A stretch of DNA of 64,000 nt, taken from Psychroserpens damuponensis. GTDB lineage: Bacteria > Bacteroidota > Bacteroidia > Flavobacteriales > Flavobacteriaceae. The position numbers were made by a program, and so were the translations under genes. The DNA is taken from NCBI RefSeq assembly GCF_000826655.1, contig NZ_JXJO01000004.1, positions 62,001 through 126,000 on the forward strand. Direction: 5' to 3'. Shown here one piece after another: positions 6,357 to 52,620 of this stretch. The notes under the pieces are model-generated. The model did not search any database. It saw only the letters and a list, made by a program, of their open reading frames with translations, and was not told the DNA's origin. Each line of letters starts with the position of its first letter. The first letter of the stretch is position 1.

Positions 6357-7460
6357 TTAATTCTTTTTCATATTTTCAATAAACTGGTCAAATAAATAGA
6401 CAGCATCATTTGGTCCAGGACTTGCTTCGGGATGATATTGTACTGAAAAACAGTTTTTGTTTTTCATTTTAATTCCAGCAACTGTGTTGTCATTAAGGTG
6501 TACGTGAGTAATTTCAATATCTGGATGATTCTCAGTTTCTTCTCTGTTTATGGCAAATCCATGGTTTTGAGACGTGATTTCACCTTTTGTGGTCACTAGG
6601 TTTTTTACAGGATGATTAATTCCTCTATGACCATTGTGCATTTTGTATGTTGAAATCCCGTTTGCCAAAGCAATAATTTGATGACCTAAACAAATACCAA
6701 ATAAGGGTAAATCTCTTTTTATGATTTCTTTAGCAACCGCTTGAGCTTCTACTAAAGGTTCTGGATCACCTGGTCCATTAGACAAAAAGTAACCATCTGG
6801 TTTAAAAGCTTCTAAATCTTCAAATTTTGAATTGTATGGAAACACCTTAATGTATGCGTCTCGTTTTGCAAGATTACGTAGAATATTCTTTTTAATCCCA
6901 ATATCTAATGCTGCGATTTTATAGGTAGCATTCTCATTTCCGAAGACATAAGGCTCTTTGGTAGACACTTTTGATGCTAATTCTAGACCTTCCATACTTG
7001 GTACTTCGGAAAGTTGCTTCTTCAAGCCTTCAACATGTTCAACATCTGTAGAGATTACTGCATTCATAGCACCATGATCTCTAATATGACTTACTAATGC
7101 TCTTGTATCTACATTAGAAATTGCTAGAAGATTATTATCTTCTAAAAATTGTTCTAATGATTTATCACCATCTGGACGTGAGTAGTTAAAACTGAAGTTT
7201 TTACAAATTAATCCTGCAATTTTAGTAGCATCAGACTCAGATTCTTCATCTTTTGTACCATAATTACCAATATGTGCATTGGTTGTTACCATTAACTGAC
7301 CATAATACGATGGGTCTGTAAAGATTTCTTGGTAACCAGTGGTTCCTGTGTTGAAACAAACTTCACCAAAAGCTGTTCCTTCTTTGCCTATTGATTTACC
7401 GTGAAAAATTGTTCCGTCTGCGAGTAGGATTAAAGCCTTTTTACGTTTTTGGTATTTCAT
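6357..7460 (-). CDS. carA: carbamoyl-phosphate synthase small (glutaminase) subunit
   Basis: A 367-residue protein supplying ammonia from glutamine to CarB for carbamoyl phosphate (arginine and pyrimidine synthesis). The N-terminal CarA domain contains NTGTTGYQEIFTDPSY. The class I glutamine amidotransferase domain carries the nucleophile Cys in FGICLGHQI and the His-Glu pair in YHPEASPGP. Full length. carB is not in the window, so the two subunits are unlinked here. It is read downstream of rplQ but behind rplQ's terminator and a 261-base gap, so it is probably transcribed separately. The flanking gaps on both sides carry the same inverted palindromic repeat. Confidence 0.97.
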   Translation of the reverse strand: MKYQKRKKALILLADGTIFHGKSIGKEGTAFGEVCFNTGTTGYQEIFTDPSYYGQLMVTTNAHIGNYGTKDEESESDATKIAGLICKNFSFNYSRPDGDKSLEQFLEDNNLLAISNVDTRALVSHIRDHGAMNAVISTDVEHVEGLKKQLSEVPSMEGLELASKVSTKEPYVFGNENATYKIAALDIGIKKNILRNLAKRDAYIKVFPYNSKFEDLEAFKPDGYFLSNGPGDPEPLVEAQAVAKEIIKRDLPLFGICLGHQIIALANGISTYKMHNGHRGINHPVKNLVTTKGEITSQNHGFAINREETENHPDIEITHVHLNDNTVAGIKMKNKNCFSVQYHPEASPGPNDAVYLFDQFIENMKKN

Positions 7461-7595
7461 TGTTGCGTATGTTGTAATGTTGTTGTTTGTTTAGTTGTTA
7501 CTAATATGATATAATTTTCTCCTGCGTTAAGGATTGAGGCATTTGTTGGAGCTCCTCAAAGAGAGCGACTGCCGAAAGCCTGACTTTTTGCGATA

Positions 7596-7623
7596 CTGCA
7601 AGGTTTAAAAACCTTGTAGGTAT
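7596..7623 (+). repeat. small palindromic repeat, copy 2 (carA-rplQ gap)
   Basis: Contains a perfect hairpin CAAGGTTT-AA-AAACCTTG (7599-7616) followed by TAGGTAT. It is the inverted counterpart of the copy at 6193-6222. No terminator-like T run on the carA side. Confidence 0.5.
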
Positions 7624-7669
7624 GCGTAAAAAGTAACGCCCAAAATAGTTTCACAAAAATCTATAAAAA

Positions 7670-7698
7670 AAAGGATAACCTAAAATAGATTATCCTTT
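7670..7698 (-). terminator. rplQ terminator, end of the ribosomal superoperon
   Basis: Stem AAAGGATAA / TTATCCTTT, 9 bases perfect, extendable past one mismatch by CTA/TAG, 23 bases beyond the rplQ stop. The minus-strand read-out ends in a run of Ts. It marks the 3' end of the rpsL-rplQ superoperon. Confidence 0.8.
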
Positions 7699-7721
7699 AT
7701 ATATTAAATGCTTATTAACAT

Positions 7722-8195
7722 TTATTCTTCTTCTTCGTTAGTTGCTTTAGTTTCAACAGGAGCAGCTGCTGGTTTAGAGCCTCCTCGACGACTTCTTCTC
7801 GTTGTCTTCTTCTCTACTTTACCTGCATTGTAGATTTCGTTGTAATCTACTAACTCAATCATTGCCATATCAGCGTTATCACCAAGTCTGTTTCCTAATT
7901 TGATGATTCTTGTATAACCACCTGGACGATCTCCAATTTTAACGGCTACATCTCTGAATAATTCAGTTACGACGTCTTTTTGTCTTAATTTAGCCATAAC
8001 AATACGTCTGTTATGTGTTGTATCAGATTTTGATTTAGTAATCATTGGTTCAACAAATTGCTTTAAAGCTTTTGCTTTTGCAACTGTTGTGTTGATACGT
8101 TTGTGCTCAATTAATGAACATGCCATATTGGCTAACATTGCTTTTCTATGCGCTGTTTGTCTTCCTAAATGGTTAAATTTCTTTCCGTGTCTCAT
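7722..8195 (-). CDS. rplQ: 50S ribosomal protein L17
   Basis: 157 residues. The core (1 to about 115) starts [12 protein letters not shown] as in all L17, which sits on the large subunit near the exit tunnel. It is followed by a ~40-residue extension: a basic stretch TTRRSRRGG, then Ala/Pro-rich and ending EEEE. E. coli L17 stops near 127 residues; such charged tails are common in Bacteroidota L17. Last gene of the superoperon, 65 bases after rpoA and before a strong terminator. Confidence 0.98.
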
Positions 8196-8260
8196 GACGT
8201 TTGTTTTATCATCTTGCTACCAAACTCGTAAATCGAGGAGCAAAATATGATTGTTAAAAA

Positions 8261-32841: not shown

Positions 32842-33885
32842 ATGAAAAATATAAACAAAAAAATCAGTTACCCGTTAATTATAGTATTCATGTTAAGTCT
32901 CTGTACTTTTTCATGTGAAGATGATGATTCAATTGCTAGACGCGGCAAACCAGCATTAACAATTTTAAATAATTCTGTTACTGTTACTGAAGGAGAAATT
33001 GCTGTATTTACATTAGATGTAGAATATGGTGTTTCTGAAAAAATAGATATTAGGATTGATATTCTAGATACAGACGGAAATCCCGTTGTTACAGCAAATC
33101 CAACCAATGGAGATGCCACAACAGGTGATGGATTCTATGATAGAGTTCTATTTGATGCTATTGAAGTGCCTTACCCAACATGGTTTGAATCTGGATATTT
33201 TGAATATGGATATCAAGGAGGATCAGGTTATATAGCCTCTTTCCCTGCATTTACCGAAACCATTGAACTAAATATTGAAACACTTCAAGATTTTATACAG
33301 GAAGGAACCGAAACTATCAACTTAAGGTTATCGGCTACATCTTTAATGGAAGCAACCATACAGGAAGACATTAGCATAATCATTAATGACTATGTTGGTA
33401 ATGATTTGATAGCAAATTTAAATTGGGCTGGTGATTATTTAGATAGTGGTGCAGACCCTTGTGATATTGATGCTGGTTTAGATTTAGATTTAGAGCTAAT
33501 ATATGATGGTAACTACATACAAACTAGTTATAACAATTGCCCAGAACAACTCATAATTTTAAGTTCAGATGCTGATGGCACATATACCATCGATGCAAGT
33601 TTTTGGACAGCAAACGGAAATACATCAATAGACAGCAACAATATACCTGTGTCTATAGAGTTTATGAAGGATGGTGTGTTTTTTGAATCTGTTGATTTAT
33701 CTTCACTTTTCCCTTTAAATGATGGTGGACTCAATGATGGAAACGGAAACGCAATAACATCTTTTTCCGTAGAAAAAAATGGCAACACGTATACCATTAC
33801 AGATAGTAATAATGCTCAAATTGCACAAGGTCGATTTTCAGACTATAGATTATCATTAGAAGAAAAGAGATTAATAAAAAATTAA
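32842..33885 (+). CDS. surface lipoprotein with a Calx-beta-like domain, SusCD-linked
   Basis: 347 residues. Lipobox with the likely acceptor Cys25 followed by EDDDS, an acidic surface-export signal. An Ig/Calx-beta-like segment covers about residues 35-185 (SVTVTEGEIAVFTLDVEYG ... EGTETINLRLS). The C-terminal ~150 residues are unrecognised, contain two Cys and end in a basic stretch. Last gene of the SusC operon, 12 bases after its neighbour and followed by a terminator. Function as ligand-binding partner is inferred from context. Confidence 0.65.
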   Translation: MKNINKKISYPLIIVFMLSLCTFSCEDDDSIARRGKPALTILNNSVTVTEGEIAVFTLDVEYGVSEKIDIRIDILDTDGNPVVTANPTNGDATTGDGFYDRVLFDAIEVPYPTWFESGYFEYGYQGGSGYIASFPAFTETIELNIETLQDFIQEGTETINLRLSATSLMEATIQEDISIIINDYVGNDLIANLNWAGDYLDSGADPCDIDAGLDLDLELIYDGNYIQTSYNNCPEQLIILSSDADGTYTIDASFWTANGNTSIDSNNIPVSIEFMKDGVFFESVDLSSLFPLNDGGLNDGNGNAITSFSVEKNGNTYTITDSNNAQIAQGRFSDYRLSLEEKRLIKN

Positions 33886-44454: not shown

Positions 44455-44550
44455 ATATATAATACTTGACTTTCACAAAAAAATTGTCAAACTTCGTTTA
44501 ACTGCGGATATCCACAATTAAAACTATCAATATCCAAACGCATTGTGTGT
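44455..44550 (+). repeat. cassette leader copy E (left edge of the array)
   Basis: Shares AACTTCGTTTAACTGCG followed by ATATC, and further downstream ATACGCATTG-like sequence (here AAACGCATTG), with the leaders at 46671, 47986 and 50307. Only the right third of the repeated block is present; neither the mpl relic nor the hairpin element lies to its left, where gene 43887-44441 ends. Confidence 0.7.
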
Positions 44551-44580
44551 CATGCAAAAAAGGAAAGAAACTTAAAGAAA

Positions 44581-44626: not shown

Positions 44627-45358
44627 TTACGCATCTTGCTTGGTATCGGTAATCATAATTTCGCGTAAAGAAACTGCTTGAGGGAGTTCGTAAGCATATT
44701 TTATGGTTTGGGCAACATCAGTCGCTGTGATGTTAACTGCTCCAACTGATTCTTTCCAATCATTATAACCATCGATAATACTTTGGTCTGTGGTATGGCC
44801 TAAAAGTTCTGTTTTAACGGCTCCAGGCATTATTGACAATACTCGAACATTAAAAGGAGACATTTGTCCGCGCACTACTTTGGTTAATCCTGTTACTCCA
44901 AATTTACTGGCACAATATGCTGCATGATTGTCAAATGGTATAACGCCTGCAATTGAAGAAATGTTGATAATTGTTCCGGTTTTTCTCAATTTCATATCAT
45001 TCATAACGATTTGCATTCCATTCATTACGCCCATCACATTTACATCTAACATAGTTTTCCACTCTTTGGCATCTTGTGTTGCAATATCACCTAAGAGCAT
45101 AACACCTGCATTGTTAACAATTAAATCTGTTTTGCCAAATTTAGCTTCAGCTTCACGAACTGCAGCCTCGAATTCATCTTTATGGGTAACATCTACTTTT
45201 CTACACATTGTGTTTGGAAGTTTTAATGCTTCCATTTTTTCAATTCTTCGTGCCAATAAAAGTAATGAATAACCATCTTTTGCAAATTCTTTTGCCATTT
45301 CTATACCAAATCCTGAACTCGCTCCAGTGATTACAATTAATTTGTTATTAGTTTTCAT
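44627..45358 (-). CDS. short-chain dehydrogenase/reductase (classical SDR)
   Basis: 243 residues. Rossmann nucleotide-binding motif TGASSGFG near residue 11, NNAGVM, catalytic Ser in NISSIAGV and the YxxxK pair in YCASK, followed by PGAVKTE. The Arg-rich stretch LLARRIEK after strand 2 favours NADP. Substrate unknown; YdfG-like SDRs act on small hydroxy acids or aldehydes. Divergent from a LysR regulator that probably controls it, with a well-formed promoter. Confidence 0.9.
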   Translation of the reverse strand: MKTNNKLIVITGASSGFGIEMAKEFAKDGYSLLLLARRIEKMEALKLPNTMCRKVDVTHKDEFEAAVREAEAKFGKTDLIVNNAGVMLLGDIATQDAKEWKTMLDVNVMGVMNGMQIVMNDMKLRKTGTIINISSIAGVIPFDNHAAYCASKFGVTGLTKVVRGQMSPFNVRVLSIMPGAVKTELLGHTTDQSIIDGYNDWKESVGAVNITATDVAQTIKYAYELPQAVSLREIMITDTKQDA

Positions 45359-45480: not shown

Positions 45481-46338
45481 ATGGATGAGAGATTACTAAG
45501 ATTTTTTGTTGCTGTTTACGAAGAAAAAAACCTAACAAGAGCTGCTGAAAAGTGCTTTGTATCGCAACCTAATATATCAAATGGATTAAAACAATTAGAA
45601 GAAATAATTGGAAAACGACTATTTTTAAGAAACAAAAGAGGTGTAGAAATAAAAGAGGATGCGCATTATTTATACCCAATTGCTAAAAGAATATTGGGAG
45701 AATTAAACGCAATACCCGAAATGTTTAAAGATGAAAATTTTAAACCTAAAATAATAATTGGAATAGCAGATAGTCTCCCTCAACAACTTAAAAACGAGTT
45801 TTTTAAAACAACTTCTAAAGTGCTAGGTAACATTGAATGGGATATTAGACCAATTGGTCATGATTGCGAAATAAATTTACTAATTAGAGAGTGGAAATTT
45901 GAAGAACATTTATTCTTACCACTTATTAGAGAAAACTACGTGCTTTGTGTTCCCGAAAACCATCCATTGGCTAAAAAAGACATCGTGGAGATAAAGGATT
46001 TAAATGGCGAACCATTTATCCATTGTCCTCCTTGTGAGGCACACCAACAAAGCCTTTCCATATTGAATAACTCAGGCCTAAAATGGAATTCGATTGCTAA
46101 TTGTCAAAGTAAAAACGAAGTATTAACCATACTTATGTCTGGACTAGGAATAACTTTTTTACCAGAATTTTTTGTAAGTGACTGGACAGGTTTTAAAATA
46201 AAAAAACATGATGGACCAACAAATTTTAGAGAAATAGGATTATCGTATGCTCCTAAAAGTCTAGAAAATTCCAAAATTTCAGAATTGATTGATTATTTTT
46301 CTAAAAACAAGCACATTTTTTTTAATGGAACTAAGTAA
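45481..46338 (+). CDS. LysR-family transcriptional regulator
   Basis: 285 residues. N-terminal winged helix-turn-helix (LLRFFVAVYEEKNLTRAAEK, CFVSQPNISNGLKQLEE) and the effector-binding domain from about residue 88, with VLCVPENHPLAK and GLGITFLPEFF typical of the fold. It is of the CysB/OxyR-like type. Two Cys close together (HCPPCEA) could be a redox or metal sensor, which is speculation. Divergent to the SDR gene, 122 bases between the starts. Its stop is 12 bases before block A. Confidence 0.92.
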   Translation: MDERLLRFFVAVYEEKNLTRAAEKCFVSQPNISNGLKQLEEIIGKRLFLRNKRGVEIKEDAHYLYPIAKRILGELNAIPEMFKDENFKPKIIIGIADSLPQQLKNEFFKTTSKVLGNIEWDIRPIGHDCEINLLIREWKFEEHLFLPLIRENYVLCVPENHPLAKKDIVEIKDLNGEPFIHCPPCEAHQQSLSILNNSGLKWNSIANCQSKNEVLTILMSGLGITFLPEFFVSDWTGFKIKKHDGPTNFREIGLSYAPKSLENSKISELIDYFSKNKHIFFNGTK

Positions 46339-46349
46339 GAAAGCACGAG

Positions 46350-46727
46350 CACACAACACCGTATATAATTCATTGCTAGTACTCGCCTAATTACGAAAGT
46401 CCTCACGGACTTTCTATCTGTGATTTTTGCTAACTTTACAGCTGAAACACGTTAGAAATCATACACAAAACCGTTAAACGAGACCTTCAAAAACCCCAAA
46501 ATTTCCTATTTCCGAAGGAATTCAATTAACAACTCAAAATCCAAACCATCATAATGACCACTACACAGTAACCAGCGATGCTTTTTCATTAAAATTTTGA
46601 GAACATAAAAACGACCTAACTAGCAAAAACAAGACTACTAATTAACTTGATGTCCTCAAAAAAATAGCCGAACTTTGTTCTACTGTGAATATCGACATAT
46701 ACAATTATCAACATCCATCTCTAAATG
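46350..46727 (+). repeat. repeated cassette-junction block A
   Basis: Hairpin element 46350-46481 with inner stem GAAAGTCC-TCAC-GGACTTTC (46395-46414) and the end ATACAC, one base, AAACCGTTAAACGA (46461-46481), identical at 20 of 21 positions to block C. Then the conserved TTTCCTATTTCCG, the mpl relic (46533-46614) and the leader with AACTTTG and ATATCGAC (46671-46696). It fills the 424-base gap between LysR and the T9SS cargo gene; apart from this block I see nothing in the gap. Confidence 0.8.
46533..46614 (-). pseudogene. relic of the mpl 3' end, copy A
   Basis: Aligns by eye to 51289-51370 of mpl at roughly 80% identity with a one-base indel, so the reading frame is broken. Same strand as mpl. 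It covers the codons for the C-terminal segment of Mpl (the LLMSSGNYGG region) only. Confidence 0.75.
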
Positions 46728-46762
46728 GTAACTATTTAAACAAAAACCCTAAAACATAAAAC

Positions 46763-47659
46763 ATGAAAAAAAATTACACTTTTAAATTTATTGGATTTAC
46801 AATTTTATTAATCTTATTATCAAATTCTGTTTTAGCACAAGTAAACGACGAAAACTTTGATGCTTTGACTCCAGCTTTAAGAGGTCTTGACTTTACGACA
46901 AACGGAATTAGATTTCAGCAGATATCTCCAAATTCTATTAGCCAAATGGCTTCTCTATCTGAAAGTTCAGATTTTATCATTACGCCATCTACTAATGATT
47001 TAGGCTTATTATACAACATTGATAATTCAGGAACAGTAAGTGGTCCAAATATAGGAGTATTTGATTATAGACTAGGAAGCGCTGATGGTTCTGAATTTAA
47101 AATTGTATCGATGGAAGCTGATATGTCGGCTAAGCCTTCTGCAAATGGTTATGTATTTATCGCAACTATTACTGGTTACCGAAATGGTGCCAGTATCATT
47201 AGTGATAATATAGATTTTACTATAAGTGACACTAGTAATTCTGTGACATATACAAAAGATGCTAATCCAGCCGCAAATGGTGGTACTTTAACTTTTTCTT
47301 CCGCTTGGGAGAATATTGATGAAATTCGTTTCACAGGAGGTACTCCAACTGGCTCTATATCACTTTTAATGATTGATGAGTTAGATTTTTCAATACCTGT
47401 GTTAAGTGCTTCAGAAAATGCTTTTGATGAAAACATTGCTATTTATCCAAATCCAACTCAAGATGTTATTAATATGAATTTTGGGAATATAAAAAATATC
47501 GATCTTAAAATATTTAATGTTTTAGGTGAAATCGTTTACGAAAAAAGAAATATTACTGAAGCTTTGTATCAGTTGAAATTAAACCAGCCGTCTGGAATCT
47601 ATTTTGTTCAATTGAATACTATAGATAAACAACGACAAATTAAAATTATTAAAAAATAA
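46763..47659 (+). CDS. secreted protein with a T9SS type A sorting domain
   Basis: 298 residues. Signal peptide (FTILLILLSNSVLAQ, cleavage near residue 26), a mature beta-rich domain (about 27-210; unrecognised, with DFTTNGIRFQQ and DLGLLYNIDNSGTVSG), then the type IX secretion C-terminal domain (about 225-298) with IAIYPNPTQDVI, GEIVYEKRN and ending RQIKIIKK. So it is exported across the outer membrane and probably anchored. No enzymatic motif seen. It is the only gene of its cassette unit, bounded by blocks A and B. Confidence 0.82.
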   Translation: MKKNYTFKFIGFTILLILLSNSVLAQVNDENFDALTPALRGLDFTTNGIRFQQISPNSISQMASLSESSDFIITPSTNDLGLLYNIDNSGTVSGPNIGVFDYRLGSADGSEFKIVSMEADMSAKPSANGYVFIATITGYRNGASIISDNIDFTISDTSNSVTYTKDANPAANGGTLTFSSAWENIDEIRFTGGTPTGSISLLMIDELDFSIPVLSASENAFDENIAIYPNPTQDVINMNFGNIKNIDLKIFNVLGEIVYEKRNITEALYQLKLNQPSGIYFVQLNTIDKQRQIKIIKK

Positions 47660-47664
47660 CAATC

Positions 47665-48045
47665 TGCCAACAACCTGCACTACCAATTACTTGGTTTGCG
47701 TGTACTCGGAAATTCCTAACGGAATTTCCGGTTGGTTAGGTTTCCATTGTTCTATTACTTCTCGTCAACGCAACAAACCGTAAACAAGACCCTGTATTAA
47801 ATTATCAAAAAACCCTAAGATTCCTATTTCTGTAGAACTGCAATTAAACCTTCAAAATCCTAACCAGGATAAATAATGCAATAAATTAATAACAAAGCTA
47901 GATCATTAAAATTTTGAGCGCATAAAAATAATGCCACCAGCAAAAATAGGACTGATGAATAACTTTCCTTTCTCAAAAATAATCAAACTTTGTTTAATTG
48001 CGAATATCAACAATTACAATTATTAATAGTCGTGCGCATTGGCAA
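47665..48045 (+). repeat. repeated cassette-junction block B (most diverged)
   Basis: The hairpin element has a perfect 10-base stem CGGAAATTCC-TAAC-GGAATTTCCG (47707-47730) and an AAACCGTAAAC end (47775-47785). Then TTCCTATTTC, TGTAGAA, the mpl relic (47851-47932) and the leader with AACTTTGTTTAATTGCG (47987 on) and GCGCATTGG. Compared with A and C, the sequence of the stem differs but the stem-loop geometry and order are kept. The remaining bases of the 465-base gap to the TetR start hold its operator and -7 box. Confidence 0.75.
47851..47932 (-). pseudogene. relic of the mpl 3' end, copy B
   Basis: Aligns without gaps to 82 bases of mpl (51289-51370); by hand count 22 mismatches, about 73% identity. 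The run AAATTTTGAGCG (11-12 bases) is identical. Same strand as mpl. Confidence 0.72.
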
Positions 48046-48091
48046 ACATTGAACATCATCATAGATGGATAAATTTTTTTTCACAAAACAG

Positions 48092-48105
48092 ACAGAATGT
48101 TCTGT
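48092..48105. promoter_or_regulatory. palindromic operator candidate upstream of the TetR gene
   Basis: ACAGAA-TG-TTCTGT, a perfect inverted repeat of 6-base arms, ends 19 bases before the ATG at 48125 and 8 bases before the TATATTTG box. Its position fits autorepression by the TetR-family protein. Confidence 0.6.
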
Positions 48106-48112
48106 TTTTGAT

Positions 48113-48120
48113 TATATTTG
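48113..48120 (+). promoter_or_regulatory. -7 box (TATATTTG) of the tetR-HPP operon
   Basis: Matches TAnnTTTG exactly and ends 4 bases before the ATG at 48125, implying a leaderless or nearly leaderless mRNA. The palindrome sits where the -33 to -7 spacer would be. Confidence 0.45.
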
Positions 48121-48124
48121 CAAT

Positions 48125-48658
48125 ATGAATAAGTTAAAACCGAAAGAAAGAGTTATGGAAGTATCCTCAAAACTTTTTCGAGAACAGGGATTTAATTCTA
48201 CTGGAATTAACCAAATAGTACAAGAAGCAAATGTAGCTAAATCAAGTTTTTACGACCACTTCAAATCTAAAGATTTCTTAGCCATAGAATACCTGAATAA
48301 TCGACATATGCAATGGTTTCAAGGACTAAAAAACCATATAAATGGATATAGGACTTCAAAAGAAAAAATATTGAAATCATTTGATTATTTGAAATCTATG
48401 AATGAAAAAGAAAATTTTGGTGGTTGTGTATTTCTCAATATGATGTCTGAATTAAAACACGGGAATAAAGAATCATATGAGATTATTAAAAATCATAAAA
48501 TTGATTTACAAAATTTCTTTAAAGACATTATAAAAGATGACGACAAGTCCTTCATTATTTATATGCTTTTTGAATCTTGCTTCATAGAAAGTCAAGCTTT
48601 TAGAAGTCAAGAAATAATCAATAGAACTATTAATTATCTAAATTCAGAAATATTATGA
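48125..48658 (+). CDS. TetR/AcrR-family transcriptional regulator
   Basis: 177 residues from the ATG at 48125 (MNKLKPKERVMEVSSKLF). The longer frame from 48065 would include the operator palindrome and -7 box, so I reject it. N-terminal helix-turn-helix GFNSTGINQIVQEANVAKSSFYDHF split over helices 2-3, then a helical ligand domain with CVFLNMMSELKHGN. It overlaps the HPP gene by 4 bases (ATGA), so the pair is one operon and the regulator probably represses both through ACAGAATGTTCTGT. Confidence 0.9.
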   Translation: MNKLKPKERVMEVSSKLFREQGFNSTGINQIVQEANVAKSSFYDHFKSKDFLAIEYLNNRHMQWFQGLKNHINGYRTSKEKILKSFDYLKSMNEKENFGGCVFLNMMSELKHGNKESYEIIKNHKIDLQNFFKDIIKDDDKSFIIYMLFESCFIESQAFRSQEIINRTINYLNSEIL

Positions 48659-49164
48659 CAAAATTTTTTTCCAAACTTAAAACAAAGGAATCAAGTCCTA
48701 ACCCTTTAGGGTTTCAGTTTTCAGGGTTTTCAGGTCTTGGTGGCTTTTTAGCAATATCAGCTGTTGCCTTATTGACAACATACACAGGTAATCCCTTTTT
48801 AATGGCACCATTTGGCGCAACCTGTGTTTTAGCTTTTGGAGTGCCTAATAGCCCTTTAGCACAGCCTCGAAATATCATAGGTGGGCATATAGTAGCCACT
48901 TTAGTAGGTTTAATTTGCCTTTATTTATTAGGTAATGAATGGTACTCTTTAGCTTTAGGAGTTGGATTAGCAATAAGTATTATGCAACTTACAGGAACAA
49001 CACATCCGCCAGCTGGAGCCGACCCAATTGTTGTTATTTTAGGAGCAAAAACGTTAATTTTTGTAGTAAACCCAGTATTGGTTGGAGCTCTTGTGATTAC
49101 TATTATAGCGCTCATATTTAATAATATTAGTACAAAACGAAAATATCCTGTGTATTGGAAATAA
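48655..49164 (+). CDS. HPP-family integral membrane protein
   Basis: 169 residues with four or five hydrophobic segments and the eponymous His-Pro-Pro in GTTHPPAGADPI near residue 120. FLMAPFGATCVLAFGVPNSPLAQPRN is a second conserved block. Some HPP proteins of cyanobacteria and plastids transport nitrite; the substrate of this one is unknown. Co-transcribed with, and probably regulated by, the TetR protein. Confidence 0.88.
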   Translation: MTKFFSKLKTKESSPNPLGFQFSGFSGLGGFLAISAVALLTTYTGNPFLMAPFGATCVLAFGVPNSPLAQPRNIIGGHIVATLVGLICLYLLGNEWYSLALGVGLAISIMQLTGTTHPPAGADPIVVILGAKTLIFVVNPVLVGALVITIIALIFNNISTKRKYPVYWK

Positions 49165-49290
49165 AAACGGGTTTTGATCTTTAAATCAAAGTTTGTGTAT
49201 ATTTATAAAATCTGACATTTTTTTTGATTTGGCCAAATACTAGTCTGAAAGATTAATTAACTTTAACCCTGTACTAGCCATAAACTAACT

Positions 49291-49300
49291 GTTAGCTAAC
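49291..49300. repeat. palindrome GTTAGCTAAC before the SUFU gene
   Basis: A perfect 10-base palindrome followed by GTTA, ending 10 bases before the ATG at 49311. It resembles the TAAC / GTTA ends of the hairpin elements, and may mark a former unit boundary between the HPP and SUFU genes. Confidence 0.3.
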
Positions 49301-49310
49301 GTTAAAAAAT

Positions 49311-49988
49311 ATGATGAGAATTCACATCAAATTTATATTGCTCGTAATCTTTTCAATAAACTTTATGAACGGACAAACTTCTGAAAATCCCGAATCTATT
49401 GAATGGGACGCCATAGATGGGATTTTGAAAAAAGAATATGGAGAGCAAGTTCCTCAACATTATGCACCAAAAGTTTATTATTCACTCGGTGGAAATGAGC
49501 CACTCGATGGAATTAGTATTTACGTAGACAAGGAAAACAAATGTTATCACTACGTAACTTATGGGTTTTCGGAAATCTATGAAAAAGAAACTGACCAGAA
49601 AGATATCAGCGGATTTGGATTTGAATTGACTTTTAGACTTAAATACACTAAATTATTAGAAAAATATCCAACTTGGCCCATCAATTTATTGCAAAACATA
49701 GCTAAAGCAACCTTCTCGAAAGGGTTGACATTTAAAGCGTATCAAACTCTTTCTTCTGGACCAATTCGATTAGAACCCTCAACTGAAATTAAAGGAATAA
49801 TCTTCACATTTGACCCAACGCTCAAGGAAATGAAAACTGAAAATGGAAATGTCGAATTTTTGCAGATTTTTGGATTGACATCAAGTGAATATCAAAACAT
49901 AATAGATAAGAAAATCGACAGACGAGAATTTATAAGTCAAGTACAGACTAAAAACCAACTATTAATAACCGATGCCGAAAGAAAATAA
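49311..49988 (+). CDS. exported suppressor-of-fused (SUFU) domain protein
   Basis: 225 residues. Signal peptide (KFILLVIFSINFMNGQ, cleavage near residue 21), then a SUFU-like fold. The visible SUFU pattern is DAIDGILKKEYGEQVPQHY, YSLGGNEPLDGISIY, FELTFRLKY and a WPINLLQNIAKATF segment. Bacterial SUFU proteins are usually cytoplasmic and many are immunity proteins of polymorphic toxins; an exported one is unusual. MM at the start allows the second ATG (49314) as well. Bounded on the right by block C. Confidence 0.8.
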   Translation: MMRIHIKFILLVIFSINFMNGQTSENPESIEWDAIDGILKKEYGEQVPQHYAPKVYYSLGGNEPLDGISIYVDKENKCYHYVTYGFSEIYEKETDQKDISGFGFELTFRLKYTKLLEKYPTWPINLLQNIAKATFSKGLTFKAYQTLSSGPIRLEPSTEIKGIIFTFDPTLKEMKTENGNVEFLQIFGLTSSEYQNIIDKKIDRREFISQVQTKNQLLITDAERK

Positions 49989-49992
49989 TATT

Positions 49993-50370
49993 GGCTAACA
50001 ATGCGTGTATTTTATTGCAAGTTCTAGCCTACTTTAGGAAATCCTAATGAATTTTCTATTCGGTATTTATTTGTTAACTTAGTCACTTAACAAAGCATAC
50101 ACTAAACCGTTAAACGAATCCTCAAAAAATCATAAGTTTCCTATTTCCGTAGAAAAACCATGAACTCATCAAATCCCAAATCACCAAAATTACCACTACT
50201 CATTAGCAGCAATGCTTTATCATTAAAATTTTTTGAGAATATAAAAATGATGCAACTGGTAACAATAGAACTTATGATTAACTTGATGTTTTCAAAAAAA
50301 AAGTAGAACTTCGTTTAACTGCGTATATCGACAAATATAACTATGAATAGCCATACGCATTGACAATAAA
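49993..50370 (+). repeat. repeated cassette-junction block C
   Basis: Hairpin element 49993-50117 (start GCTAACAATGCGTGTAT, end ATACAC, one base, AAACCGTTAAACGA), imperfect inner stem around AGGAAATCC and GAATTTTCT, then TTTCCTATTTCCGTAGAA, the mpl relic (50163-50251) and the leader with AACTTCGTTTAACTGCG and ATATCGAC (50307-50332). It fills the 417-base gap to the next gene; I see no other feature in it. Confidence 0.8.
50163..50251 (-). pseudogene. relic of the mpl 3' end, copy C (closest to intact mpl)
   Basis: Shares ATTACCACTACTCATTA with mpl without change and aligns over about 85 bases at roughly 85% by eye. A one-base deletion and a two-base insertion break the frame. Same strand as mpl. 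The best-preserved copy is also the one nearest to the intact gene. Confidence 0.8.
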
Positions 50371-50405
50371 TTAAACCAAACTAGAGAAATCTTAGATTGA
50401 ATATT

Positions 50406-51083
50406 ATGACATTGAAAAACTTCATCACTTCATTAATTTTATGTGTTTATTGTATTAATGCATTTTCACAGAACGAAATTCCTACAATTGACAAAATTGT
50501 ATTTAATGACGGAACTATTAGGGAAGGTAAACTAAAACTTAATAAGTCCCAAGGAATAGAATTTAATGGTAACGTAAAATTATGTAATGGAAAAAAGAAT
50601 AAAGATTGTATTTCTTATCAAATATCTGATATTGCTAATATAACCCAAGCACCACCTGAGTTAATTGTTAATCAACTTAAAGAGTTAAAAACATCAAAAG
50701 CGTATCACAATATTCTTGAAAAAAGTGACAATCCTGATGAATTTAAAATTGAAACTTATATCAATCATTATAAAGTAATTTATAATGATAATGAAGAAAA
50801 TGGTGGTTTAGCAAAATTAAAATATTCAGGAAAAAATGCCGATTTCTATTATTATTCTAAACCTGGAAAAAATGGAGGAAAAACTTGTTTAACGAAACCA
50901 AATTCTAATTCTATAATATTTAGCTATAACAGTACAGGCACCTCTGATAAATTTAGTCTCAAACAATTATCAGAGTATTTTAAAAATTGTGAAATTTTCA
51001 CTAAAAAAAGTACTGAAAAAAATGCTCATAAAACGTATAAAATTAAATATTTCTATAAGCTCTCAGATAAGTGTTCTATTTAG
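50406..51083 (+). CDS. secreted protein of unknown function
   Basis: 225 residues from the ATG at 50406 (a TTG at 50397 is less likely). Signal peptide ITSLILCVYCINAFSQ, cleavage near residue 22. The mature part starts with a short beta unit (IDKIVFNDGTIREGKLKL) of the kind seen in many small flavobacterial secreted proteins. It has paired Cys (LCNGKKNKDC) and a Lys/Asn-rich C-terminus. Family not recognised. It is the last unit of the cassette array, between leader C and hairpin element D. Confidence 0.65.
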   Translation: MTLKNFITSLILCVYCINAFSQNEIPTIDKIVFNDGTIREGKLKLNKSQGIEFNGNVKLCNGKKNKDCISYQISDIANITQAPPELIVNQLKELKTSKAYHNILEKSDNPDEFKIETYINHYKVIYNDNEENGGLAKLKYSGKNADFYYYSKPGKNGGKTCLTKPNSNSIIFSYNSTGTSDKFSLKQLSEYFKNCEIFTKKSTEKNAHKTYKIKYFYKLSDKCSI

Positions 51084-51106: not shown

Positions 51107-51205
51107 GATTAACACCATGTTTAATTAATGGCATAGTCACTCCCGATTTATAAAAATTCCTCTAGAATATTCTATATGAGTTTAATTTGCTCAGGATAAT
51201 AGCCA
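51107..51205 (+). repeat. hairpin element D (right edge of the array)
   Basis: TAACACCATGTTTAATTAAT, then GGCATAGTCACTC and later TTCTATATGAG and TTTGCTC follow the same order as hairpin element A (TAACACC-like start, TTTCTAT, GCTAACTT). The ATACAC...CCGTTAAACGA end is lost. It is followed directly by the mpl terminator and mpl, so here the left half of the block is joined to the intact gene instead of a relic. Confidence 0.6.
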
Positions 51206-51264: not shown

Positions 51265-52620
51265 TCATTTAAAAAGATGTGTGACCTCATCAAAATCTAA
51301 ACCACCATAATTACCACTACTCATTAATAATAGGGCTTTATCGTCAAAATTTTGAGCGAATAAAAATGATTTAAAATCTTCTGGATTGGTATATATAATT
51401 AAATCGTCACGCTCAAAAGCCGTTGCAATTTGCTCGTGAGTCACCTCGTCTAATTTTTTGATTTCTACTGCATGAGGTGAATAGAAAACTACGGCAACAT
51501 CTGCTGCATCAAGAGCACCTTTATATTCTTTTAAAAACTCGGCATTTAAACTACTGTAGGTATGTAATTCTAAACAAGCCACGAGCGTTCTATTGTCGTA
51601 TTGTTCTTTTACTGCTTTTGTTGTCGCTTCAACCTTAGATGGCGAATGTGCAAAATCTTTATAAGCTACGCTTTTAGAGGTTTCGGCAATTTTCTCTAGT
51701 CGTTTGCTGGCACCTTTAAATGTAGAAATAGCTTCATAAAAATCATCCTCATCAATTCCCATATGCTGACAAATCCATTTGGCACCAGCGAGATTATTGA
51801 GGTTATGTTTTCCGAAGACTTCAATAGGCAAATCACCTTCAGGCGTTGCGAGTAAAGTTTGTCCGTTCTCAACCTTATAATCAGGTGTTTGATAGGCTAG
51901 CTTTCTAATTTGATTCTCACTCGCCTCGACAACACGTTTGACCTCGAGATCTTCTTCATTATAATTGATACTTCCACCTTGTACAATACTATCCACGAAT
52001 ATAGAAAACTGCTCCACATAATTCTCATACGTAGGAAACACATTAATATGATCCCAAGCAATACCACTCAGTAATGCAATATTGGGTTTATATAAGTGAA
52101 ATTTTGGTCGCCTGTCTATTGGAGAACTCAAATACTCGTCACCTTCTAACACAATAAAATCATTATCTTCAGTAAGTTTTACCATCACATCAAAACCTTC
52201 TAATTGTGCACCAACCATATAATCAACATCACGATCGTGATAATGCATGACATGTAAAATCATGGATGTTATTGTTGTTTTACCGTGACTTCCACCAATG
52301 ACTACACGTGTTTTGTGTTTGGATTGCTCGTATAAAAACTCTGGATAACTATAAATTTTAAGATTGAGTTCTTGAGCTTTTAATAGCTCTGGATTGTTTG
52401 CTTTGGCGTGCATTCCTAAAACGATAGCATCTACATTTGAGTTTACTTTTTCTGGGAACCAGCCAAATGCTTCTGGCAATAATCCCTTGGCTTCTAACCT
52501 AGATTTTGAAGGTTCAAAAATAGTATCGTCACTACCTGTAACTTGATATCCTTTATTGTGAAGTGCTAAGGCGAGATTGTGCATAGCGCTTCCACCAATA
52601 GCTATAAAATGTACGTTCAT
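51265..52620 (-). CDS. mpl: UDP-N-acetylmuramate:L-alanyl-gamma-D-glutamyl-meso-diaminopimelate ligase (Mur ligase family)
   Basis: 451 residues. Mur-ligase features: N-terminal UDP-binding domain (IGGSAMHNLALAL), ATP-binding GGSHGKTTITSM, the central LEGDEYLSSP and HNLNNLAGA segments, and the C-terminal domain with DFAHSPSKVEATTKAV. Mpl recycles cell-wall tripeptide onto UDP-MurNAc. The C-terminal LLMSSGNYGGLDFDEV is the region whose DNA is copied as relics at 46533, 47851 and 50163. Complete and apparently functional, transcribed leftward toward the array with its own terminator. Confidence 0.92.
   Translation of the reverse strand: MNVHFIAIGGSAMHNLALALHNKGYQVTGSDDTIFEPSKSRLEAKGLLPEAFGWFPEKVNSNVDAIVLGMHAKANNPELLKAQELNLKIYSYPEFLYEQSKHKTRVVIGGSHGKTTITSMILHVMHYHDRDVDYMVGAQLEGFDVMVKLTEDNDFIVLEGDEYLSSPIDRRPKFHLYKPNIALLSGIAWDHINVFPTYENYVEQFSIFVDSIVQGGSINYNEEDLEVKRVVEASENQIRKLAYQTPDYKVENGQTLLATPEGDLPIEVFGKHNLNNLAGAKWICQHMGIDEDDFYEAISTFKGASKRLEKIAETSKSVAYKDFAHSPSKVEATTKAVKEQYDNRTLVACLELHTYSSLNAEFLKEYKGALDAADVAVVFYSPHAVEIKKLDEVTHEQIATAFERDDLIIYTNPEDFKSFLFAQNFDDKALLLMSSGNYGGLDFDEVTHLFK

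Follow-up and report, generated by a model that had tools for sequence, protein, structure and literature searches.

The window analysed here, a stretch of 64,000 nucleotides from Psychroserpens damuponensis (positions 62001-126000 of contig C41 in the source genome, G000, a 3.95-Mb draft of 106 contigs), carries a cluster of genes for, among others, a LysR regulator, a type IX secretion system (T9SS) cargo protein and a SUFU protein, which ends at a Mur ligase gene that we take to be mpl. The LysR, cargo and SUFU genes are each followed on the same strand by a copy of an element of ~125 bp that resembles the attC recombination sites of integrons, and a possible remnant of a fourth copy (D) follows the last gene of the cluster. 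Integrons, which are recognised by their integrase IntI, are a main gene-capture device of bacteria. Judging from the sequence comparisons described below, we consider it quite probable that these elements belong, as attC-like sites, to an integron-like cassette system that occurs in Bacteroidota, most visibly in Flavobacteriaceae, and in which cassettes move as units and a Xer-like recombinase is found at the array head. The following elements were delimited, using a covariance model, R1, that was built from 36 sites of the source genome and related genomes; its training set includes element C and excludes elements A and B.

46355..46475, + strand: attC-like site A, 3' of the LysR gene, from R'' AAC to R' GTTAAAC; R1 match at E 6e-21; nhmmer score 73.6 bits; 8-bp stem
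47669..47796, + strand: attC-like site B, 3' of the T9SS-cargo gene; R1 match at E 9.6e-9; 10-bp stem, folding z -3.4; R' core decayed to GTAAAC
49997..50111, + strand: attC-like site C, 3' of the SUFU gene; R1 match at E 2.5e-19, C itself being an R1 training row
51107..51205, + strand: possible remnant of a fourth site, D, seen by alignment alone; R1 5.0 bits, E 0.24, unconfirmed

The sequence-only reading of this stretch had listed all four elements. A and C are indeed clear, and B, degenerate as it is, is matched by R1, whereas D was not confirmed; because C belongs to the training set, A and B are the only independent R1 matches among the elements. The perfect stems with 4-base loops reported in that reading are real in both A (8 bp) and B (10 bp), and the ends AAACCGTTAAACGA in A and C can be read straight from the sequence; the central stem is broken in C. 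An Rfam scan of the cluster gave four matches with E values up to 5, far under the family cut-offs, which were taken as chance. Elsewhere in the window, there is a weak R1 match at 32860-32966 (E 0.013).

The site family and its cassette arrays

Members of this family form an imperfect palindrome, R''-L''-L'-R', with AAC and GTT ends, the GTT being present in all 36 aligned rows. Covariation in the stems, suggested earlier as a check, is evident in the 36-site alignment (A2), where 25 cells have changed on both sides of a pair (shuffles, 5.3) and the score for covariation reaches 0.113 (shuffles, 0.062); none of 500 shuffles reached either value, and the number of further pair types was unexceptional (82 of 500 shuffles). 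The spacings between the R and L stems are 3 versus 6 columns, and the same alignment contains conserved G.T/A.C positions and no clear extrahelical bases. At cassette junctions, the sole constant part of the core is GTT followed by a purine, found at 435 of 438 of them.

Further genomic copies are plentiful: of 150 candidates scored in the source genome alone, at least 80 match R1 at E 0.01, many of them on contigs of 3-6 kb that resemble arrays split by assembly. At E 1e-5, sites were detected in 127 of 149 genomes sampled from the family, representing 126 of 148 genera, and in 44 of 296 genomes sampled across the phylum. Site counts per genome from these searches are lower bounds, because scoring was confined to the top candidates in each genome.

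In one genome (G002), 277 full-length sites, all on one strand, form an array that extends from 1,838,279 to 2,101,559 (~263 kb), followed by a single weak partial match reaching to 2,104,529 and by none in the next 40 kb. Of the 476 full-length sites in all stretches analysed, which were selected for having sites, 473 share the strand that predominates in their own stretch. Open reading frames (ORFs) of at least 80 aa are present in 343 of 441 cassettes and point to the site in 335 of those 343, with a median distance of 12 nt from stop codon to site. The 273 delimited cassettes of G002 fall into 209 clusters; one 595-bp cassette, which has no long ORF, occurs there in 29 copies, and other cassettes in 10 and 6 copies. 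One cassette protein of the source genome (L087:5947-7225, contig C35) is AbiH-like in appearance, a name that we assume for it, and because of this protein, cassettes may carry defence genes.

If a cassette is cut at GTT and circularised, its R'' would be expected to pair with the start of that cassette rather than with the next one in the array. In 266 cassettes of G002, the six positions outside AAC match the cassette's own start at frequencies of 0.99, 0.85, 0.88, 0.90, 0.98, and 0.94, compared to 0.54, 0.36, 0.36, 0.32, 0.38, and 0.37 for the actual neighbour in the array, with shuffled pairings behaving like the latter. The per-position match is 0.88-1.0 in the source genome (24 cassettes) and 0.73-0.86, versus 0.35-0.48, in other genomes (63 cassettes). 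In addition, 123 within-genome pairs of cassettes with at least 97% identity have their sequence in common up to CGTT and then lose it, identity falling to 0.47 and 0.31 right of GTT and to 0.37 and 0.36 left of CG; these pairs are not independent, because most come from two genomes (96 pairs from G002 and 24 from G059) and a few multi-copy cassettes supply many of them. Such comparisons of cassette sequences point to an exchange of cassettes as units, with the cut at CGTT.

When the sites are joined with their own starts, the bottom strand is predicted to fold more stably in 392 of the 401 distinct sites, of which G002 supplies 245, with a mean energy of -26.2 kcal/mol versus -22.3 for the top strand. 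Control stretches from cassette bodies behave in the reverse manner, the bottom strand being lower in 124 of 401. The advantage of the bottom strand arises because A.C mismatches of the top strand are G.T pairs on the bottom strand: at two column pairs of the L stem, the top strand has A.C and the bottom strand G.T in all 36 rows and in 35 of 36, respectively, and position 8 outside R'' shows this arrangement in 316 of 401 sites and the opposite one in none. Passages in PMC8946536 state that bottom-strand attC sites recombine far better and credit extrahelical bases, the spacer and the terminal structure.

The array-linked recombinase

The closest named relative of the source genome's array-linked tyrosine recombinase comes from Winogradskyella ursingii (70% identity). 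Most array-linked proteins consist of 370-404 aa; two of those aligned have 305 and 312 aa, and the one at locus L070 is interrupted. Residues R235, K260, H324, R327, H350, and Y359 (numbering of the source genome's own protein), which we take to be the catalytic ones, are invariant in an alignment of 18 sequences.

A search for IntI-type recombinases had been suggested earlier; the array-linked enzyme is not IntI by the usual definition. The IntI family TIGR02249 had no match over its cut-off in any of 57 relatives; sub-cut-off matches were obtained in 56 of them and in all 14 control genomes, because this profile also catches other tyrosine recombinases. Seven proteins (five array-linked and two of 355 aa) scored 190-217 bits against the cut-off of 265, with the match split in two pieces around a missing insertion. 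The distance from the KGxKDR to the HxLRH motif is 64-67 residues in the array-linked recombinases and 107 in the 11 true IntI proteins measured of 12 loci, the former being without the ~40-residue insertion that defines IntI. As a separate observation, none of the 85 phylum genomes with a true IntI match at E 1e-60 comes from the window's family.

A quick tree of 102 rows (8 of 110 having been dropped beforehand as fragments, near-copies or second matches), with support from the Shimodaira-Hasegawa-like approximate likelihood ratio test (SH-aLRT) and no bootstrap, places the array-linked rows within a 56-row clade that is nearly all Bacteroidota (SH-aLRT 91), and the IntI rows in one separate clade (support 100). 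There is no supported relation between these two clades, and the outgroup rows do not form one side of any branch. For the tree group labelled Xer, motif distance is no test, because that group was chosen by a distance of 72-73.

Array-linked genes are often followed by an attI-like sequence, a common or inverted-repeat stretch 3' of the stop codon that ends at GTT and is cassette-specific beyond it. Such sites, identified by eye, accompany 16 of 18 distinct recombinases of a first set, the two exceptions being of the 355-aa kind, and lie within 110 nt in 11 of the 27 recombinases of a second set. At 80 recombinase loci, 35 of 37 sites are located downstream, on the strand of the recombinase; R1 sites are found downstream in 10 of the 37 named loci of the 56-row clade and at none of the remaining 43 loci, which are outside the clade or unplaced. 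Position, orientation and the attI-like sites suggest that the Xer-like recombinase probably runs the system. A plasmid search with the source genome's own recombinase matched at least 5 records over at least 80% of its length, one of them from Persicobacter (42% identity); among the matches listed, the similarity of many other plasmid records, class 1 integrase genes among them, was confined to the C-terminal part.

In an AlphaFold model of the W. ursingii recombinase (mean predicted local distance difference test [pLDDT] score, 85.9), the first ~75 residues form an extra small domain, which was modelled at a pLDDT of 79.6 when isolated. Comparison of the N-terminal model with known structures had XPB/UvsW domains as the eight best matches (Z 6.3-7.0), followed by eIF1-like folds (Z 6.1) and HARP (4o66; Z 4.2), all in the chance-prone range. 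HARP and XPB domains are akin. Among ten proteins, the HARP family PF07443 scored 19.2 bits (E 0.0009) in one and 13.5 bits (E 0.053) in another, with a cut-off of 25; Foldseek with the N-terminal model returned no match at E 0.001, and a sequence search of the PDB with the N-terminal profile no relevant match. Other weak Pfam names for this region (DTC, at E 0.0031, YutD-like, and DUF7397) were taken as unrelated. The models hint at a weak HARP/XPB-like resemblance, and this domain might read branched or hairpin DNA.

The cassette cluster beside mpl

The genes of the window cluster and the repeated sequences between them, other than A-D, are as follows. The stretches designated U were delimited with a hidden Markov model of the four U copies.

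44458..44562, + strand: U1, left target half (hairpin insertion target), preceding the short-chain dehydrogenase/LysR cassette; start/R'' match with A, 5 of 2000 random stretches as good
44627..45358, - strand: short-chain dehydrogenase, cassette A (Pfam PF00106)
45481..46338, + strand: LysR regulator, cassette A (Pfam)
46473..46637, + strand: right target half GTTAAACGA and decayed copy of the mpl 3' end (alignment; tblastn 53 and 56% identity in two pieces, E 0.021)
46638..46743, + strand: U2, decayed left target half, before the T9SS-cargo gene; start/R'' match at random level
46763..47659, + strand: T9SS cargo, cassette B (Pfam PF18962)
47791..47953, + strand: second decayed copy of the mpl 3' end (alignment; tblastn 57% identity, E 0.005)
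47954..48057, + strand: U3, decayed left target half, before the TetR-HPP-SUFU genes; start/R'' match at random level
48065..49988, + strand: genes for TetR, HPP membrane protein and SUFU, cassette C (Pfam)
50109..50272, + strand: third copy of the mpl 3' end, the least decayed (tblastn 74% identity over 27 aa, E 7e-10)
50273..50378, + strand: U4, left target half, before the last gene; start/R'' match at random level
50397..51083, + strand: unknown gene, last cassette, without a Pfam match
51265..52620, - strand: intact mpl-like Mur ligase, right border (Pfam Mur ligase domains)

Each of A, B, and C is followed by the same order of sequences, namely GTTAAACGA or a decayed form of it, a remnant of the mpl 3' end, and the common ~100-bp stretch U. 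The whole cluster is missing at mpl in the four relatives fetched (G014, G005, G010, and G015). U, together with a right half that reads GTTAAACGAAC, also flanks single cassettes elsewhere, one in the source genome (C1:19916, locus L083) and one in G018 (locus L211), and the start/R'' match at these two targets is equalled by 1 and 4 of 2000 random stretches, respectively. The joined flanks of L083, L211, and window cassette A are more stable than all 200 shuffles, those of L083 forming a hairpin with GTTTAAC/GTTAAAC arms, and this folding suggests that the target is a short hairpin with such arms. GTTAAAC in A and C, and with it their fit to GTTRRRY, is a property of this target and not of the element family. 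Elsewhere in the genome, at L208:8178-8226, L083:16584-16630, and L084:10418-10457, the left part of U occurs either on its own or accompanied by decayed partners.

The window copies are decayed sites at an off-array spot adjoining mpl, where cassettes would have been inserted into the hairpin target. This target was apparently tandem-duplicated together with the end of mpl, each duplicated copy would then have received its own cassette, and the sites would have decayed since, in an order of events that we infer. For the window taken alone, the cluster could also have come from tandem duplication of one mpl-flanking unit and later replacement of genes by homologous recombination, with no repeated site-specific insertion. 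The identical mpl-to-U junction in the three window copies and the lack of a start/R'' match in B, C, and D agree with such a history, which nevertheless appears somewhat unlikely, given that cassette A has retained its match and that the target exists in a single-cassette version with a good match both in L083 and in G018.

Alternatives and comparison with known integrons

For the element family, the reading of these sequences as attC-like recombination sites stands, with the R''/L''/L'/R' layout, covariation, one-strand arrays, CGTT junctions, the bottom-strand fold, and recombinases with attI-like sites all in its favour. The proposed unit would comprise the tyrosine recombinase, the attI-like site and the one-strand array, each cassette consisting of a short start, usually a gene, and then an attC-like site. 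A cassette would leave as a circle; the bottom strand of its site would fold into a hairpin, which the recombinase would join at GTT to attI or to another site.

Several observations weigh against this reading. In the window itself, D is without model support, its best R1 score being that listed above even with filters off. Single-strand folding, which had been proposed for each element, sets B apart (bottom strand, none of 200 shuffles as stable), whereas A (z -1.2, 21 of 200 shuffles as good; top strand, z -1.6) and C (z -1.6, 16 of 200 shuffles as good) do not beat their shuffles. The start/R'' match is random-like in B, C, and D (1831, 764, and 1928 of 2000 random stretches as good), the joined flanks of target C fold no better than 32 of 200 shuffles, and a stringent pattern for the empty hairpin target was unmatched in 29 genomes. 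The GTTRRRY core, to which GTTAAAC in A and C had correctly been fitted, is not a family trait, as it is present in just 28 of 438 cassette junctions; because it rarely holds, the sites are named attC-like and not attC. In the paired cassettes, three positions inside the cassette end are common at only 0.76-0.92, so the border is less sharp on that side, and between genomes just 4 cassette pairs are in common, at 91.2-93.6% (three link G002 with other genera and one links Algibacter onchidii with G157). As for the recombinases, 16 of the 27 in the second set have no clear attI within 110 nt, R1 sites are found at only 9 of 23 clade loci with at least 1.5 kb downstream, and a distinct group of recombinases of 355-366 aa is encoded close to sites that lie on the other strand, the orientation of classical integrons (L112:16317-17384, L074:9654-10721, and L151:2925-4025).

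The arrays could resemble clusters of attC sites lacking integron-integrases (CALINs), made and moved by a true IntI elsewhere in the phylum, the adjacent Xer-like recombinase being incidental. True IntI does exceed the family cut-off in 84 of 296 phylum genomes, and in G255 (contig C116) an R1-type site lies ~1 kb from a true IntI gene, on the other strand (L216:6148-6265 and 7305-8246), which suggests that IntI and the Xer-like enzyme may share the R1 site type. Yet this origin is quite unlikely: none of the 57 relatives has IntI over the cut-off, while sites are present in most genomes of the family, none of 12 loci flanking the best true IntI genes (only ~1.5 kb on each side) had an R1 match, and the attI-like sites begin near the stop codon of the Xer-like gene, with the array sites following on its strand. 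It is very improbable that the elements, rather than being recombination sites, are terminators or structured repeats between genes that have spread along with these; the central stem does lie a median 12 nt past the ORF, but cassette ends that match across a whole gene, CGTT junctions and a bottom-strand bias would be unexpected for terminators. Movement by a single-strand HUH-type (IS200/IS605-like) transposase reading one-strand hairpins would account for their strand bias and is just as hard to credit, with a tyrosine recombinase and attI-like site at the array heads and with start/R'' matching and CGTT cut points that fit integrons.

Vibrio-type superintegrons are sedentary chromosomal integrons. 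The attC-like arrays resemble them in forming long one-strand arrays with an attI-like site at the head, in the R''/L''/L'/R' layout, in the junction within GTT, and in favouring the bottom strand. They differ in that the recombinase lacks the IntI insertion and has an N-terminal domain, and in that the attI-like site is located 3' of the stop codon, with an array that has the same direction as the recombinase gene. There is also no conservation of RRRY after GTT, start/R'' matching extends past seven bases, and the strand bias is accompanied by G.T/A.C positions. The modelled enzyme appears to share the tyrosine recombinase fold with IntI (structure 2a3v; Z 21.3, root-mean-square deviation [rmsd] 3.2 over 257 residues, 32% identity), from which the array-linked proteins are set apart by their sub-cut-off scores, split match and separate clade. 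Their best NCBIfam match is the archaeal XerA type (NF040815, 201-239 bits; its cut-off of 220 was passed by 3 of 7 proteins), and the XerA structure aligns with the AlphaFold model at Z 23.7, though with an rmsd of 14.5. Unlike XerA-type proteins, they have ~75-100 more N-terminal residues and are linked to cassette arrays. Archaeal integrons, as described in passages of PMC9668308, likewise have attI directly downstream of the integrase gene, but their integrases retain the IntI-specific domain.

Bacteroidota are counted among integron-bearing phyla in parts of the review literature (PMC8618304). Excerpts of PMC9024848 report one complete integron in Bacteroidetes proper, that of Salinibacter ruber, among the RefSeq complete genomes analysed with IntegronFinder 2.0, and only integrases, without cassettes, from an earlier IntegronFinder study. 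According to sections of the respective papers, IntegronFinder detects integrases via the IntI-specific domain (PMC9668308), an older survey likewise required it (PMC2426708), and the 11 attC models of Ghaly et al. include none for Bacteroidota. The array-linked proteins are without this domain used by integron finders. In the open-licence literature, preprints excluded, we found no description of such integrons in Flavobacteriaceae.

A more specific proposal, which we put forward tentatively and with slightly less than even confidence, is that Bacteroidota possess a second integron lineage, in which a Xer-family recombinase would act on folded attC-like hairpins without the IntI insertion. 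Its HARP/XPB-like N-terminal domain would recognise the hairpin or junction, and G.T pairs, not extrahelical bases, would select the bottom strand; the lineage would be present in most Flavobacteriaceae genera and missed by finders based on the IntI domain. An integron-like system with sites in 127 of 149 genomes of the family, and with 277 of them in one array, would add a large, little noticed reservoir of mobile genes and would suggest that the IntI insertion is not the sole route to recombining folded single-stranded sites. With an alternative to that insertion, the origin of integrons would therefore become directly testable.

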